Assembly: GCA_028342535.1 (NCBI GenBank)
Contig: JAOLWQ010000001.1
Coordinates: 248,001-312,000 of the forward strand
Direction of reading: 5' to 3'
Source of the DNA: Methylophilaceae bacterium
GTDB lineage: Bacteria > Pseudomonadota > Gammaproteobacteria > Burkholderiales > Methylophilaceae
Length of the DNA stretch: 64,000 bases
Within the stretch, counting starts at the first letter, position 1, and each line of letters begins with the position of its first letter. Both the position numbers and the translations under genes were made by a program. Shown here piece by piece: positions 20,724 through 41,576 of the stretch. The notes under the pieces were generated by a model, which saw only the letters and a program-made list of their open reading frames with translations, was not told the DNA's origin and did no database searches.

Positions 20724-22168
20724 GCAATCAATTAAAAAAGCTATTAACTGAATTTGAATATTTAGAGCAAAATAGTATAAATATCAAAAAAGGCTCAATT
20801 TTTTTAGCTTACCCCGGTGAAATAAAAGATGGACGGCATTATATTAATGAGGCTATAGAAAAAGGAGCTGCTGCAATAATATACGACCCATTAGATTTTG
20901 AATGGGACGCCCAATGGAAATTACCAAATTTACCAGTAAAAAATTTAAAAGATAATATTTCAAATATTGCAAGCGAGTTTTATGATCACCCATCAAAAAA
21001 AATTAATTTAATAGGCGTAACAGGCACTAATGGTAAAACTTCAAGTGTATTTTGGATAAACCAATGCCTTAAAAATTTAGACAGAAAAGCTACAATGATT
21101 AGCACGATTGGTTATGGCTTTATTAATAATTTATACCCAACTAAAAATACAACACCTGATGCAATTGAAATTCAAAAAATAATAAATAATTTTAATATTA
21201 ATAAGGTTCAGGATGTATGTATTGAAGTATCTTCTCATGGGATTAAGCAAGGAAGAGTAGCCGGTATTGATTTTGATGTCAGGGTATTTACGAATCTTTC
21301 TAGAGATCATCTAGATTATCATGACTCTATTGAAAGCTACGCAAATATAAAAAAAGAATTTTTATTGGATGCTAAGAAGGGTAACTTAGTTATAAATATT
21401 GACGATCCACTAGGTAAAAAAATTTTTCAAGAATCAGTATTAGATGAATCTAAAAAAATATCTTTTGGTATAGATAGAATATGCACACTGCAAGCAAAAA
21501 ATCTTGTGACAGAAAATAAAATAACAAAATTTGACTTAATATATCAAGATAAAATTATTGAGGTAACGGCTTCAGTAGTTGGAAGATATAATATCTATAA
21601 TATTTTAGGCGTAATTGGGACTTTGATCTCTTTAGGTCATCAGATAAAAGACATTATTCCAGTATTAAAAATCTTAAACTCAGTTCCTGGAAGAGCAGAA
21701 GAATTAGAAATCGATTTGGATAATTATCCGAAAGTTATTATAGATTACGCTCATACTCCCGACGCTCTTAAAAATATACTAGAGTCCTTGAAAGTTTTAA
21801 AATACAAAAAATTAAATCTTGTTTTTGGATGTGGGGGAGATAGGGATCAAGGTAAAAGAAAAGAAATGGCAGTGATTGTTAATCAATACGTAGATTTTGT
21901 AGTTGTAACTTCTGATAATCCAAGAAATGAAGAGCCAAAGAAAATAATTGATGACATTTGTGAAAGTTTAATTATTCCAAATATTGCAGTAGAGGATAGA
22001 GAGAAAGCAATTAAAGAAGTATTAAAAAATTCTGATATTAATGATGTAATTCTAATTGCAGGGAAAGGGCATGAAACATATCAGGAAATAAAAGGGGTTA
22101 GAAAACCTTTTTCAGATAGGTTAATAGCAAAAAAATATATGGCCAGATACTTTGGAGTAGAAAATTAA
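20720..22168 (+). CDS. murE: UDP-MurNAc-L-Ala-D-Glu:meso-diaminopimelate ligase MurE
   Basis: MurE adds the third residue of the murein stem peptide in the cytoplasm. The ATP-binding loop is GVTGTNGKTS near residue 99, with NTTPDA and EVSSHG following and HTPDAL near residue 344. The DNPRNEEP motif near residue 405 is the signature of enzymes that select meso-diaminopimelate, agreeing with dapA elsewhere in the window. It has 482 residues. Its last codons contain a GGAG Shine-Dalgarno sequence that appears to serve murF, whose AUU start overlaps the murE stop. Confidence 0.96.
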   Translation: MSNQLKKLLTEFEYLEQNSINIKKGSIFLAYPGEIKDGRHYINEAIEKGAAAIIYDPLDFEWDAQWKLPNLPVKNLKDNISNIASEFYDHPSKKINLIGVTGTNGKTSSVFWINQCLKNLDRKATMISTIGYGFINNLYPTKNTTPDAIEIQKIINNFNINKVQDVCIEVSSHGIKQGRVAGIDFDVRVFTNLSRDHLDYHDSIESYANIKKEFLLDAKKGNLVINIDDPLGKKIFQESVLDESKKISFGIDRICTLQAKNLVTENKITKFDLIYQDKIIEVTASVVGRYNIYNILGVIGTLISLGHQIKDIIPVLKILNSVPGRAEELEIDLDNYPKVIIDYAHTPDALKNILESLKVLKYKKLNLVFGCGGDRDQGKRKEMAVIVNQYVDFVVVTSDNPRNEEPKKIIDDICESLIIPNIAVEDREKAIKEVLKNSDINDVILIAGKGHETYQEIKGVRKPFSDRLIAKKYMARYFGVEN

Positions 22169-23510
22169 TATTACATTAAAAAAGATTGTAGAGATTACAA
22201 ATGGCTCTTTTATAGGCCCAGTAGACTTTTTAAAAACTAAGATTTCAACTATCACGATAGATTCAAGAAATGAAAAAAAATGTGACTTATATATTGCAAT
22301 AATAGGAAAGAAACATAACGGTAATCAATTTATAGAAGCAGTACTTAAAAATAGTGCTAAATTTGCAATTATTTCTAACCCTAAATTTCATTCAAAAAAT
22401 ACTATTTTAGTAGAAAGCGGGAATAAAGCATTAGCAAATATCGCTTTATTTATCAGAGATCAAATTAAACCAAAAATAATTGCTATTACAGGAAGTAATG
22501 GAAAAACTTCAACAAAAGAAGTTTTAGTATCTATTATGAATAAATATTTAGGCAAGGATAAATTATTATATACAGCAGGTAATTTTAATAATGATATTGG
22601 GTTACCACTTACACTTCTGAATCTTAAGGAAAGACATAGTCATGCTGTATTAGAATTAGGTATGAATCATGCTGGGGAAATTGCTAAACTTACAAAAATT
22701 GCTAAACCTGATATTGCTTTAATTACCAATATTGGCGAAGCACATATTGAGAATTTTAAATCTAAAGACAATATTGCAGAAGCAAAGAAAGAACTTCTAA
22801 ATAATTCAGATCAACTTGAAACTTCGATATTACCCAGAGATGATGCGTATTATAAATTTTTAGCCAAAGGTAAAAATAATTTAAATAAAATAACTTTTGG
22901 CTTCACAAAAGAAGCAACAATAAACTGTAAGGTATTAACTAGGCAAAAAATAACTATCAGCACCCCCAAAGAAAATTTTGACGTCAAAATAAATTTATTA
23001 GGTAGGCATAATATTAGTAATATTCTTGCTGCATGTGCATGCAGTTATGCTTTAGGCATACCTACAAATATAATTAAAGAAGGAATAGAGGCTGCTAAGC
23101 CATTTCCTGGAAGGCTTGAGATTATAGATAGCATCAGTGAGGCAATTATAATTAATGACAGTTATAACGCTAACCCAAGCTCTATGAGAGAGGCTGTAGA
23201 TGTTTTAGCATCAATGAAAGGAAAGAAAATTTTAGTTATTGGAGATATGGCTGAACTCGGAAACAATACAGATAAATACCATCGAGAGTTGGGTGAGTAT
23301 ATTAAAAAATCTCAAATAGACTTTACCTTAGCTATTGGGAGCCATACAAAAATAACTATGCAACAACTAGATAAAAATGAATTTTGGTTTGACTCGAAAG
23401 AGGCTCTTTTAAGCAAACTATTAAAGATAATAGATTCTAAATCAATTATATTAGTTAAAGGCTCTCGATTTATGAGAATGGAAGAACTTATTAGTAAAAT
23501 TATTTTATAG
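22164..23510 (+). CDS. murF: UDP-MurNAc-tripeptide:D-Ala-D-Ala ligase MurF, probable AUU start
   Basis: MurF completes the murein precursor by adding D-Ala-D-Ala. The ORF track begins at an internal ATG (22536), which would remove the N-terminal domain and the P-loop. The frame is open back to 22161 and encodes NITLKKIVEITNG, a typical MurF N-terminus, then TIDSRN and the ATP loop AITGSNGKTSTKE. No ATG, GTG or TTG exists between the upstream stop and the homologous region. ATT at 22164 is preceded by GGAG with six-base spacing and overlaps the murE stop, so it is the best start. Later motifs include ELGMNHAGEI, GRHNISN and NDSYNANPSSM. This gives about 448 residues, normal for the family. Confidence 0.9.
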   Translation: MNITLKKIVEITNGSFIGPVDFLKTKISTITIDSRNEKKCDLYIAIIGKKHNGNQFIEAVLKNSAKFAIISNPKFHSKNTILVESGNKALANIALFIRDQIKPKIIAITGSNGKTSTKEVLVSIMNKYLGKDKLLYTAGNFNNDIGLPLTLLNLKERHSHAVLELGMNHAGEIAKLTKIAKPDIALITNIGEAHIENFKSKDNIAEAKKELLNNSDQLETSILPRDDAYYKFLAKGKNNLNKITFGFTKEATINCKVLTRQKITISTPKENFDVKINLLGRHNISNILAACACSYALGIPTNIIKEGIEAAKPFPGRLEIIDSISEAIIINDSYNANPSSMREAVDVLASMKGKKILVIGDMAELGNNTDKYHRELGEYIKKSQIDFTLAIGSHTKITMQQLDKNEFWFDSKEALLSKLLKIIDSKSIILVKGSRFMRMEELISKIIL

Positions 23511-36612: not shown

Positions 36613-37767
36613 ATGAAAATCTTTCTAGTTGGTGGCGCTGTCAGAGATAAAATACTAGGTATTCCAGTACATGATAAAGACTATTTAGTCGTAGGAAGCA
36701 CCCCAGAAGAGATGGTTAAATTAGGCTTTAAACCTATTGGAAAAGATTTTCCTGTATTTTTACATCCCAAAACTAAAGACGAGTATGCCCTTGCAAGAAC
36801 AGAGAGGAAAGTCGGTAAAGGTTATCATGGATTTAAATTTTATACATCACCTGATGTAACACTCGAGCAAGACCTAAGAAGAAGAGATATTACGATAAAT
36901 GCAATAGCCGAAGATAGGGATGGGAATATCTATGACCCATTCAATGGTAAAGATGATATTAAAAATAAAATTATTCGACATGTCAGCAACGCATTTATCG
37001 AGGACCCTTTGAGGGTTTTGAGGGTAGCTAGATTTGCATCATTGGATATTCAATTTAAAGTCCAGTCAGAAACATTAGTTTTAATGAAAAAGATGGTATC
37101 AAGTGGTGAGCTTAAGTCTTTATCAGTGGAGCGAGTCGTGACGGAGATTACAAAGGGTTTAGACGGTCGGAACCCAGATATTATGATTCACTACCTTTGT
37201 GAGTGCGGCGCACTGAATGAATTGCTTCCTGGACTTAATCCTAATCCAGATACATCTTTAGACTTTGTCAGTCTAGGGTTAGCAATGAAGGAGTCCACAA
37301 TCTCTTTGTCAGTTGAATCTAAAATCATAATGTTGTTATTGGTTCCTTACTTTGGTAAGTATTCTTTATTGAGCGCTGATAAGATCGCCTTAGAACAAAT
37401 AGAACCCTTATTAAAATACTTAAAACTTTCAAGCCTATCCCGTGAAATATTTAAGGGTATTAAAAATGAAGAGCAAAACCTTAAATATTTTTTAAAATTA
37501 AGCCCAGAAGCTAAACTAGATTGCTTATACCGACTTGATTTTTTTCGTCGCCGAAATATCATTTCAGAGATCTTGAATATCATTACTATGTTCTATAAGG
37601 CATTTGAGAATGCGACCTCAACAAATGATGAAATTAAGAAATTCCTAGATCTTTTCTCTGGAGAAATCAACCAATTAAGAAGTAAGTTGGACACCTCAAA
37701 ATCAGGAGATGAAATTAAAAAGTTGATATATCAAAATAGACTTTCTGTCCTTAAAAAAATTAGTTAA
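36613..37767 (+). CDS. cca: CCA-adding tRNA nucleotidyltransferase
   Basis: This enzyme builds or repairs the 3' CCA end of tRNAs. The class II head is clear: [20 protein letters not shown] (residues 4-23) with the catalytic DxD, then [12 protein letters not shown] near residue 89 and [14 protein letters not shown] near residue 131. The protein is 384 residues, shorter than the 412 of E. coli. The HD phosphohydrolase motifs found in the C-terminal half of many proteobacterial enzymes (such as CHDLGK) are not present, so this version probably lacks phosphatase activity. Its last eight bases overlap the convergent HAD gene. Confidence 0.93.
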
Positions 37768-38377
37768 CAATTAAATCTCTTAGTTTAGTTATTTTCTTAT
37801 CTATATATGATGGATTTTCTTTTTCATTAGTTAGCCATATTGTAGATAATCCAAATTGATTAGCTGTTTCAAGGTTCTCTTTAACATCATCTACAAAATT
37901 AGCTACTTTAATTTTATATTTCTTTATAAAAAATTCCATTGAAGTGGCGCTTGGCTTTGCTATATAATTTGCATCTTCTATGCTAAAAATTCCATCAAAG
38001 TAATTTTCAATCTGACATATCTGCAGTACTTTATTTGTATAATTTCTAGGTGCATTTGTGTAGAGTATCTTTTCTCCATTTATCGAAGTTAATACCTTTA
38101 TTAAGTCTGGCATAGGCACAATTAATTCTTCAAAATTTTCAAGTGTATGAGTAACTTCTAAAAATTCAGTTGGATTTATATTATGGTGCTTTATTAATCC
38201 TTCGATAGTAGCTCCATAATAGTCCCAATATTGCTGTCTTAATCTATCTGCTTCTGTAATGTTAATTTTTACTGATTTACTGATGTATTGATTAATTTTT
38301 TGATTAATTATCGGAAATATGTTTTTTTGTGCATCATGTAAGGTGTTATCAAGGTCGAATATCCAGGTGTCTTTCAA
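37760..38377 (-). CDS. HAD-family hydrolase, pyrimidine 5'-nucleotidase-like
   Basis: A 205-residue haloacid-dehalogenase-type phosphatase. Motif I is FDLDNTLHD with the nucleophile Asp8, motif II is LYTNAPRNY near residue 107, motif III is the Lys in [10 protein letters not shown], and motif IV is [12 protein letters not shown] near residue 167. The cap and motif order resemble the SDT1/pyrimidine 5'-nucleotidase subgroup, which dephosphorylates UMP or CMP and similar molecules. The start is TTG, one base after the argB stop, so it is probably the third gene of an argA-argB operon. The link to arginine synthesis is unclear. Confidence 0.8.
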
Positions 38378-38378
38378 A

Positions 38379-39236
38379 TTACTGATCCTTTATAAGGGTT
38401 CCAACACCCTGATCTGTTAATATTTCTAATAATAATGCATGTTCAACTCTTCCATCAATGATATGCACAGTATTTACTTTATGCTTAGCAGCATGAACTG
38501 CAGAGTTTATTTTAGGGAGCATGCCTTCAGATATGGTTCCATCAGCTATTAGCCTTCTAATTTCTTTTGGAATTAGACCTGTAATTAGATTATTTTTTTT
38601 ATCTAAAACACCTTTTGTATTAGTCATTAGTACTAATTTTTCAGCATTTAAAATCTCTGCAAATTTTGAAGCTACAACATCAGCATTAATATTATAAATT
38701 TTATTATCATTACCTATTCCAATTGGGGCAATAATTGGAATGACCCCATTATCTGTAAGATGCTTCATAAAGGATGGGTCGATACTCACTATTTCACCAA
38801 CATAACCAAGATCAATTGATTTACTCTGAACTTTTAATTTTTTAGCTTTGATAATCCCAATTGTTTTTTTATTACTATAGCTTTTACCATCCCCACCATT
38901 TTCTTTAATTAGTGAAACAATTTCTTTGTTGATATCATTTAAGACATTTGCAACGATTGTCATAGTTTCCTCATCGGTGACTCTTATTCCTTGCTCAAAT
39001 AATGGTTTCTTCCCCAATTTATTAAGAGACTTATTTATTTGAGGGCCTCCACCATGAATAACCACCGGATTCATTCCAACTAATTTAAGGAGTACTACAT
39101 CTTTAGCAAATGATTGCTTCAACTTATTATCAACCATAGCATTACCACCAAACTTAATAACAATCGTTTTACCAAAAAATTTTTTGATATAAGGAAGAGC
39201 TTCGCTTAAAACCTTTGATTTTTCGTTTGGAGTCAT
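38379..39236 (-). CDS. argB: Acetylglutamate kinase
   Basis: ArgB phosphorylates N-acetylglutamate, the second step of arginine synthesis. The amino-acid kinase fold shows [11 protein letters not shown] near residue 26, [14 protein letters not shown] near residue 58, the VTDEETM segment, and [15 protein letters not shown] near residue 180 (nucleotide and substrate binding). [13 protein letters not shown] and GGMLPK-like [13 protein letters not shown] follow. It has 285 residues, the arginine-sensitive cyclic-pathway size class. It starts three bases after the stop of the HTH-ArgA fusion gene, so the two are in one operon. Confidence 0.95.
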
Positions 39237-39239
39237 ATT

Positions 39240-40778
39240 TTATAACCTTTTGATAAAGTATTTAGAATTTCGTTCGATAGTATAGGTTTTCTTTCTTGTA
39301 TCGGGAATAAGTTTTCTATCTGTTAAGGAAAAATCGTTCTCAATAAACCAATGTTCCGATTGGGTTGTGAGTATAAATAATTTTTGTATATTTTTATTTA
39401 TCGCAATTTGCTCACAAAATTTTAATAATTTCTTTCCATAACCTAGATTCTGATAATTCTCATGAATGGCAAAGCAAGCCACTTCTATCATTTCTTCATA
39501 TTGATATAAAGCGACAGTTCCAATTATATTATGGCCATGCTCAATAACATAAAATGAGTTTATATCTTTATCTATATTATTATTTATTCTATCAATAAGA
39601 ATACCTTCTTTCTCCAAGGGCTCAATAATATTTATTATCTGTTTAATATCCCTTATTGTCGCAGCTCTAATATTTTGTAGAGAATGCTCTGTTAGGACTG
39701 TTCCAGAGCCTTTATCTGTGAATATTTCCTCTATGACTGAGCCATCAATATTCCTATTTATTAAGTGTACTTTTTCAATATTATTTTTGATAGCATATAA
39801 GCTACTTTTGAGAATATTGAAATCATGATAAGAAATAAAAGGCGCATTGTTTGGATCTTCAATACTTTCAATTAAATGTTTAGCTTTAGAAATAGTTAAT
39901 TCTGGAATTAACTCCCCACGGATATTTAAAATTCCATTTGTGTTTATGTAATAAATTAATTTTTCAGCTTTTATTGCTTGCGCCACATGTGCAGCAGTTT
40001 GCTCATAAGATAAATTGAATATATCTCCAATAGGCGAATAACCTAGGGGTGAAATAATGACAATCTCTCTATTATTTAACTTATCAGTTATGGCATTAGT
40101 ATCAATTTTTCTTATCTGCCCTGTTAGCTCCATATCTACACCATCAATCACACCTAGCGGCCTTGCAGTAATGAAATTTCCACTAGACACTTTAATATTA
40201 CTTCCAAGCAACGGAGAGTCCAAGATGCCTGAAGACAGAGTAGCCTCAATATTTGTTTTTATTATCCCATTTACCTCTACTATATCGTTTAACATTTCCT
40301 TTTTTGTAACTCTAATATTTCTAATTAATTTATTTTTATTTATTTTTCCTTTTAATTTATTATCAATTTGCGGTCTGATTCCATGAACTAAAATAATATT
40401 TATATTCATTGAATGTAATAAATTAATATCACAAGCGATTGATTTTAATTGATTATCACTAATAACTTCACCCCCTAATGCAATAACAAAGGTTTTATTA
40501 TTAAATTGGTTAATAAATTTTGCAGATAGTCTAAAATTTTCAATAAAACTTTTGGCCTCACTAACTAATTTATTTTGAGGAGAAACTTTGTCAAAAAATA
40601 CTAATGGAGATACATTAAAAGCTAAAGATAATTTTTCGAGCAAATTAAAGCTTATCTTTAATTCATTCCTCTCAATTCTAGATAGGTTGCCGGGATCTAA
40701 ATTTAATAGATTTGCTAAACAAGCAAGCGTCATATTTTGTTCTTGGCGCAATTTTCTTACAATTTGACCTGGGTTCAT
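39240..40778 (-). CDS. argA: N-acetylglutamate synthase ArgA with fused N-terminal XRE-type HTH domain
   Basis: The C-terminal 440 residues are a classical ArgA, making N-acetylglutamate from glutamate and acetyl-CoA. The kinase-like arginine-sensing domain has KTFVIALGGEVISDNQ, LLHSMNINIILVHGIRPQID and NIRVTKKEM. The GNAT domain ends LFILTTQSEHWFIENDF. Before it lies an uninterrupted extra domain (residues about 5-65) that reads as a helix-turn-helix of the XRE/Cro class: IVRKLRQEQNMTLACLANLL then PGNLSRIERNELKIS and LLEKLSLAFNVSPLVFF. The protein is 512 residues against 443 for E. coli ArgA. Two TGTA-N5-TACA dyads sit around its promoter, so it may be an arginine-responsive autoregulator. 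No alternative start at the ArgA boundary is needed. Confidence 0.92.
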   Translation of the reverse strand: MNPGQIVRKLRQEQNMTLACLANLLNLDPGNLSRIERNELKISFNLLEKLSLAFNVSPLVFFDKVSPQNKLVSEAKSFIENFRLSAKFINQFNNKTFVIALGGEVISDNQLKSIACDINLLHSMNINIILVHGIRPQIDNKLKGKINKNKLIRNIRVTKKEMLNDIVEVNGIIKTNIEATLSSGILDSPLLGSNIKVSSGNFITARPLGVIDGVDMELTGQIRKIDTNAITDKLNNREIVIISPLGYSPIGDIFNLSYEQTAAHVAQAIKAEKLIYYINTNGILNIRGELIPELTISKAKHLIESIEDPNNAPFISYHDFNILKSSLYAIKNNIEKVHLINRNIDGSVIEEIFTDKGSGTVLTEHSLQNIRAATIRDIKQIINIIEPLEKEGILIDRINNNIDKDINSFYVIEHGHNIIGTVALYQYEEMIEVACFAIHENYQNLGYGKKLLKFCEQIAINKNIQKLFILTTQSEHWFIENDFSLTDRKLIPDTRKKTYTIERNSKYFIKRL

Positions 40779-40780
40779 AT

Positions 40781-40793
40781 TGTATTTTTTACA
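40781..40793. promoter_or_regulatory. Dyad TGTA-N5-TACA just before argA (operator-like site 1)
   Basis: TGTATTTTTTACA lies two bases upstream of the HTH-argA start codon, in the leader. It shares half-sites and spacing with the dyad at 40833-40845. It would fit a dimeric HTH protein; the HTH domain of ArgA itself is the obvious candidate, but this is inference. Confidence 0.4.
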
Positions 40794-40816
40794 TATTTAT
40801 TGATAGTAATTAGATA

Positions 40817-40846
40817 ATTATAAGCTAAATAATGTAATTTATACAA
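40817..40846 (-). promoter_or_regulatory. Predicted promoter of the argA-argB operon
   Basis: On the minus strand a perfect TATAAT (40822-40817) lies 39 bp before the ATG. At 18-bp spacing the -35 candidate is TTGTAT (40846-40841), a weak match that lies within the dyad of site 2. Transcription would start near 40810. Confidence 0.45.
40833..40845. promoter_or_regulatory. Dyad TGTA-N5-TACA over the argA -35 region (operator-like site 2)
   Basis: TGTAATTTATACA has TGTA and TACA half-sites around a 5-bp AT core. It overlaps the rsmE stop codon and the predicted -35 of argA, a classic repressor position. Its centre is 52 bp from that of site 1, close to five helical turns, allowing both to be held on the same DNA face. 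Confidence 0.45.
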
Positions 40847-41576
40847 TATCTCCATACTTATATTGTAATATTGATAATATACAAATAGGCGCAGTTTCTG
40901 TACGAAGAATTCTTGGCCCTATTTTGATAGGTAAAAAACCTTTTTGAATGGAATAATCTAATTCTTCTTCAGTAAAATCACCTTCTGGACCAATTAAAAC
41001 TTTTATGTCTTTTTTGGTTTTATGAATATTACTATCTAAGGATTCGGCTGCTTGAGGGCTTAAAATTATTTTAGTACCTTTGTCAGATTCTTCGACCTTA
41101 TCAAGGTATTTGATAATATTTACTGGCTTGTGAATTATCGGTATTTCTGCGCGTCCACATTGCTCACAAGCTGCAATAGAAACCTGACGCCAGTGTAATA
41201 TTTTTTTTTCTATCTTTTCATTTTTAATTTTCACTATACTTCTTTCACATACAATTGGTTGAATCTCAGTGATTCCCAGTTCAGTTGTTTTTTGAATAAT
41301 CAAGTCCATTTTTTCACTGGAAGTAAGCGACTGTAAGAGAGTTACTCTTATATTTGATTCATTTTCAATACTTTTCTTTGATTTAATTGATACTTCAACT
41401 TGGCGCTTAATTATACGAATCACATATCCTGTGTAGTCCGACCCATCACCGTTAAATAAAATTAATTGATCATTATTTTTTAGGCGCATTACTTTTAGAG
41501 CATGGTGAGCAGCAAACTCATCCATGACAATTGTTTCATTAATATTTATGGGTTTAGAATGGTAAAATCTATTCAC
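40839..41576 (-). CDS. rsmE: 16S rRNA (uracil1498-N3)-methyltransferase
   Basis: RsmE methylates U1498 of 16S rRNA in the assembled small subunit. The protein has an N-terminal PUA-like part (AAHHALKVMRLKNNDQL) and a SPOUT methyltransferase domain with the knot region VLIGPEGDFTEEELD near residue 190 and LGPRILRTETAP-like IGPRILRTETAPI near residue 220. It also carries the family's CERSIVK and EQCGRAEIP segments. It has 245 residues. The start is GTG. It lies 60 bp upstream of the HTH-argA gene, whose promoter overlaps its stop. Confidence 0.95.
   Translation of the reverse strand: MNRFYHSKPININETIVMDEFAAHHALKVMRLKNNDQLILFNGDGSDYTGYVIRIIKRQVEVSIKSKKSIENESNIRVTLLQSLTSSEKMDLIIQKTTELGITEIQPIVCERSIVKIKNEKIEKKILHWRQVSIAACEQCGRAEIPIIHKPVNIIKYLDKVEESDKGTKIILSPQAAESLDSNIHKTKKDIKVLIGPEGDFTEEELDYSIQKGFLPIKIGPRILRTETAPICILSILQYKYGDIV

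Follow-up and report, generated by a model that had tools for sequence, protein, structure and literature searches.

The question raised by this locus is which factor, if any, recognizes two inverted repeats placed around the argA promoter, and whether that factor is the argA product itself, an N-acetylglutamate synthase (NAGS) that begins with a helix-turn-helix (HTH) domain. We studied the locus in a window of 64,000 nucleotides, meaning the whole stretch of DNA that was analysed, from a 1.19-Mb draft genome whose nearest named relatives are Methylophilaceae of the OM43 type. The features that the argument needs are as follows.

37760 to 38377, minus strand: gene for a HAD-family hydrolase, after argB
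38379 to 39236, minus strand: argB, acetylglutamate kinase, starting 3 bp past argA
39240 to 40778, minus strand: argA, N-acetylglutamate synthase, a fusion of HTH, amino-acid-kinase and GNAT domains of 512 amino acids
39699 to 39728, minus strand: arginine-site motif EIFTDKGSGT, residues 351-360 of ArgA
40590 to 40778, minus strand: Cro/CI-type HTH domain, residues 1-63 of ArgA, recognition helix at 29-36
40780 to 40794, minus strand: candidate proximal operator, ATGTAAAAAATACAA on the minus strand, core 40781-40793, position and symmetry kept across Methylophilaceae
40817 to 40822, minus strand: argA promoter -10 hexamer, TATAAT
40832 to 40846, minus strand: candidate distal operator, TTGTATAAATTACAT on the minus strand, core 40833-40845, conserved
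40841 to 40846, minus strand: -35 position, TTGTAT, part of the distal operator, 18 bp before the -10 hexamer, 3/6 consensus bases
40839 to 41576, minus strand: rsmE, the upstream gene, with its stop codon inside the distal operator

Domain searches place ArgA in both the NAGS and the Cro/CI (Xre) HTH families. The HTH_3 domain (PF01381) was found at residues 7-59 with 35.2 bits, above its curated cut-off of 23, together with AA_kinase and Acetyltransf_1, and the protein matched NCBIfam NF003641 (505.6 bits, cut-off 344, residues 74-512) and TIGR01890 (439.6 bits, cut-off 202.85) with the AAK plus GNAT architecture of the NAGS equivalog. The closest solved relatives of the HTH by sequence are restriction-modification C proteins such as C.Esp1396I (E ~4e-6), SinR also being among the PDB matches, and residues 67-512 align with the Neisseria gonorrhoeae NAGS (2R8V), so that the HTH joins the N-terminal helix of the synthase. 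An AlphaFold model, low in confidence overall (pLDDT 64.5, 8 sequences) and used for the HTH helices only, has these helices at 18-25 and 29-36 (block pLDDT 69-90, residues 1-60), with a separate helix at 73-92. Arginine bound next to the N-terminal helix of the Neisseria enzyme displaces this helix and changes the shape of the hexamer, and the arginine-site motif of NAGS is E-(L/I)-(F/M)-(T/S)-X-X-G-X-G-T (PMC4490483). The arginine site of ArgA is intact, as E351-IFTDKGSGT-360 fits the published motif; further, K273 and E351, which were matched by eye from the alignment to Neisseria K201 and E270, are invariant in 8 relatives.

Both dyads were re-located where the first-pass annotation had put them, the proximal core (TGTATTTTTTACA) at 40781-40793 with its centre at 40787 and the distal core (TGTAATTTATACA) at 40833-40845 with its centre at 40839, 52 bp away, and the perfect minus-strand TATAAT reported between them is present. 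The rsmE-argA gap is 60 bp, and this gap plus the rsmE stop codon contains both repeats. The proximal dyad ends 2 bp short of the argA ATG and lies downstream of the predicted transcription start; among OM43 relatives, several have it extending into the argA start codon (e.g. TTGTATTTTATGCAA). The stop codon of rsmE (gene end at 40839) and the -35 position both fall within the distal dyad; the GTATAA half of this dyad is partly rsmE coding sequence and the TTACA half lies past the stop. Thus one dyad does cover the -35 region and the other does lie by the start codon, as had been proposed, but the -35 hexamer is poor (3/6) and a consensus promoter scan reported no promoter. Of 89 relatives, 56 have a TATAAT match of at least 5/6 at a distance of 15-19 bp from the distal TTG, compared with ~21% of random placements. 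The TTG of the distal site doubles in part as a -35 signal and in part as rsmE coding sequence. The rsmE-argA-argB-HAD order is retained in all 39 loci tested, and argA and argB likely share one operon.

We also observed a possible third operator at 40863-40877 (TTATCAATATTACAA on the minus strand), within the 3' end of rsmE, upstream of the distal dyad by 31 bp. This candidate is a perfect TTGTC-N5-TACAA in the three closest relatives (L028, L029 and L030), located around -97 to -99 relative to the ATG; it is partly supplied by LSILQ codons and may be a coding coincidence. In two other relatives the argA match itself is irregular: it is fragmented across 2166 bp in L024 (FRAM18_bin317), which suggests that this assembly carries a frameshift or an insertion, and in L114 (G181) the HTH region is out of frame beside an N run, probably through an assembly fault.

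How often such repeats arise was assessed by pattern searches. Five copies of TGTAN5TACA lie in the window where 1.15 are expected, a count reached by 1 of 100 shuffles; genome-wide the pattern has 30 copies and its reversed control 19. After annotation of the flanks of all 30 copies, the 28 away from argA were all found inside open reading frames, and the only pair in a non-coding context is the one in the argA gap. Given these counts, the motif alone marks nothing. At the 30-copy density the expected number of pairs within 52 bp is ~0.04 for the whole genome, by simple arithmetic that ignores local AT richness. The earlier argument that the pair is improbable by chance therefore stands for the pair, but the motif is not rare and the argument is not decisive alone, so the question is settled by conservation across species. 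One copy, in the murF region, first seemed intergenic and falls in the murF reading frame. This murF-like frame (22161-23510) contains a perfect TTGTA-N5-TACAA and lacks an ATG, GTG or TTG around the place next to the end of murE (22168) where its start is expected, through a sequence error or the use of an unusual start codon.

We collected argA upstream regions across Methylophilaceae, oriented by tblastn, and scored dyads as TTGY-N7-RCAA with at least 7/8 half-site matches against dinucleotide shuffles (n=200). The TTGY consensus was derived from the same sequences as those tested; the shuffles and the outgroup were scored identically with it. In 42 non-redundant regions (<85% identical) we found 74 dyads, compared with a shuffled mean of 14.75 and a maximum of 29 in 200 shuffles, and 26 of the 42 had a dyad pair, compared with 1.6 (maximum 6) after shuffling. 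By contrast, 40 argA upstream regions from other families of the order showed no dyad excess (10 vs 7.2 shuffled). Exact TGTAN5TACA is found at both dyads in the four species closest to the window, whose ArgA is 80-100% identical, with a spacing of 50-52 bp, and again in seven genomes of the KB13 lineage (45-47% ArgA identity), with a spacing of 41-42 bp. Other Methylophilaceae genera have the same layout as TTGY-N7-RCAA, with T or C as the fourth base and usually a spacing of 30 bp. The footprint of the rsmE-argA gap is thus one of paired dyads kept family-wide, even at ~46% ArgA identity. Sites are degraded or altered in some lineages (L031-L034, L040-L043 and L070-L078). Upstream of argA in L031, L032 and L034 the operator is possibly in transition; the distal site of L031 has apparently drifted to a TTATC/GATAA-like palindrome, and its proximal site reads TTGC-N7-GCAA.

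The spacing of the pair is also constrained. When the best pair was free to fall at any distance of 15-80 bp, the 39 representatives gave 29-31 bp in 24 regions, 41-42 bp in 2 and 50-52 bp in ~9, with ~3.5 scattered. These distances correspond to about 3, 4 and 5 turns of B-DNA, and the phase persists despite the change in length; the roughly five turns first noted for the 52 bp at this locus are one member of that series. Spacing near whole helical turns is what two protein dimers on one helix face would need.

The distribution of the HTH follows that of the dyads. A profile of the Methylophilaceae HTH found no such domain on 40 ArgA proteins of related families, and in a 300-genome sample of the order, most of the matches listed outside Methylophilaceae begin near residue 70. 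One genome outside the family, G314, seemed to have a match from residue 13 and was discarded as an HTH carrier, having no HTH match to the profile. Fusion and paired dyads therefore co-occur in Methylophilaceae, and both are absent from the 40 sampled argA of related families. We also searched for ArgR (PF01316), which was detected in 9 of 14 positive-control genomes and in none of 187 Methylophilaceae genomes above cut-off (two weak matches fell below it); on this ground ArgR was rejected as the argA regulator.

The best-supported reading, and the one first suggested for these repeats, is that HTH-ArgA recognizes them: the co-occurrence of fusion and dyads, the phased spacing and the survival of the pair at ~46% ArgA identity all point to it. 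Judged from sequence, the dyads are very probably operators of HTH-ArgA at its own promoter, and the enzyme, as an arginine sensor, probably turns off expression of its own gene. The N-terminal HTH would bind both dyads at the argA(-argB-HAD) promoter, with one HTH dimer over the -35 position and spacer and the other over the stretch from the transcription start to the argA start codon, and occupancy of these operators would block RNA polymerase. As the dyads lie on about the same helix face (3, 4 or 5 turns), a multimeric ArgA could hold both simultaneously. With the HTH fused straight onto the NAGS N-terminal helix that arginine moves, arginine probably strengthens DNA binding, and it would do so together with inhibiting catalysis, so that one protein would serve as enzyme, arginine sensor and repressor. 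DNA binding, repression, a co-repressor role for arginine and bridging by a multimer are what we infer from these features. In its fullest form, the model would have hexameric ArgA bridging the two phased operators, with arginine at the kinase-like domain shutting off catalysis and clamping the promoter, and the whole replacing ArgR across the family; we offer this version tentatively and rate it somewhat short of an even bet. DNA looping between the dyads may contribute, and for the commoner 30-bp spacing side-by-side cooperative binding fits equally well.

C proteins of restriction-modification systems autoregulate through paired dimer sites. The kinship of the HTH to C proteins such as C.Esp1396I, together with the poor argA -35 hexamer, would suit a related scheme in which HTH-ArgA at low occupancy of the distal site activates a weak promoter and represses it at high occupancy through the proximal site. 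We consider this switch unlikely, since the distal dyad lies over the -35 and spacer rather than upstream of the -35, a placement typical of repression, and AT-rich genomes commonly have weak -35 hexamers.

Binding of the dyads by a separately encoded regulator, with the ArgA HTH having another role or other target genes, appears quite improbable, even though further Xre-type regulators can exist in these genomes. Dyads and HTH fusion are present together and absent together across families, and the half-site base varies with HTH residue 40: all 39 rows with Q at this residue have C-type half-sites, and of the 50 rows with L, V, I or M there, 38 have T-type ones. The raw association is strong and suggestive of co-evolution, but the residue-40 class changes only twice on the tree, so the association, which is not significant once corrected for relatedness (one or two independent changes), does not count as independent evidence. 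Nor is there any sign of a wider regulon for the sites. Enrichment of the motif upstream of arg genes, which the first-pass annotation had led one to look for, was not seen in the genome-wide scan beyond argA. Further, the 15-mer TTGTAN5TACAA is not enriched in nine relatives (20 in total vs 35 for the control). A wider arg regulon was rejected on this result and on the position of the 28 other copies inside genes. The 15-mer nevertheless matches the argA promoter in 6 of the 9 relatives (five confirmed from flanks, G108 by position), which fits an operator dedicated to argA, and the regulon appears to be argA alone.

The repeats might instead act as RNA hairpins in the transcript, in control of translation or at the end of rsmE transcription. 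Palindrome conservation alone cannot separate a DNA role from an RNA role, and the folding of the distal stretch (-4.8 kcal/mol) is somewhat better than that of its shuffles (z -2.4). However, this repeat lies upstream of the predicted argA transcription start, a search for a terminator-like site found none, and folding of the proximal repeat yields just -0.5 kcal/mol (z about 0), too weak for a hairpin; we rejected this reading as very improbable. That an AT-rich gap simply yielded functionless TGTA/TACA palindromes is hardly credible, common as the core pattern is in the genome, given family-wide enrichment far above shuffles, conserved phase and survival at 46% protein identity, and as far as sequence allows the shuffle and outgroup tests refute a chance origin.

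If HTH-ArgA does repress its own gene, it would both resemble and differ from several known systems. It shares with the classical NAGS of N. gonorrhoeae (2R8V) the kinase-like and GNAT domains and the arginine-site motif, residues 67-512 being matched, but adds an N-terminal Cro/CI HTH of ~63-70 residues on the helix that arginine moves. A review of NAGS nowhere mentions a helix-turn-helix or DNA binding (PMC4490483), and among titles and abstracts we found no description of an HTH-NAGS fusion. The C.Esp1396I-type C proteins have the same HTH family and paired-operator autoregulation but are small and stand-alone, without an enzyme domain, whereas ArgA is an enzyme fusion. Arginine-dependent control of arg genes, the job that HTH-ArgA would do, is that of ArgR/AhrC acting at ARG boxes; the TTGY-N7-RCAA operators are unlike ARG boxes and apparently serve argA alone rather than the whole pathway. 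The fusion is family-wide in the Methylophilaceae, methanol-eating bacteria of water and soil. It would provide a mechanism of arginine control for this family of streamlined methylotrophs, abundant in fresh water and the sea, in which ArgR is not detected; the 3-, 4- and 5-turn spacings with TTGT or TTGC half-sites form a natural series for the joint evolution of operator and HTH.

PutA, BirA and NadR are enzyme-repressors, also called trigger enzymes. HTH-ArgA has what marks this class, namely a DNA-binding domain on a metabolic enzyme and conserved sites at the enzyme's own promoter. As in those proteins, one polypeptide would be enzyme, ligand sensor and probable autorepressor (here as predicted from sequence), but its enzyme, ligand and DNA-binding domain are all different from theirs. 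If this is true, an allosteric amino-acid synthase joins the short list of self-repressing enzymes.
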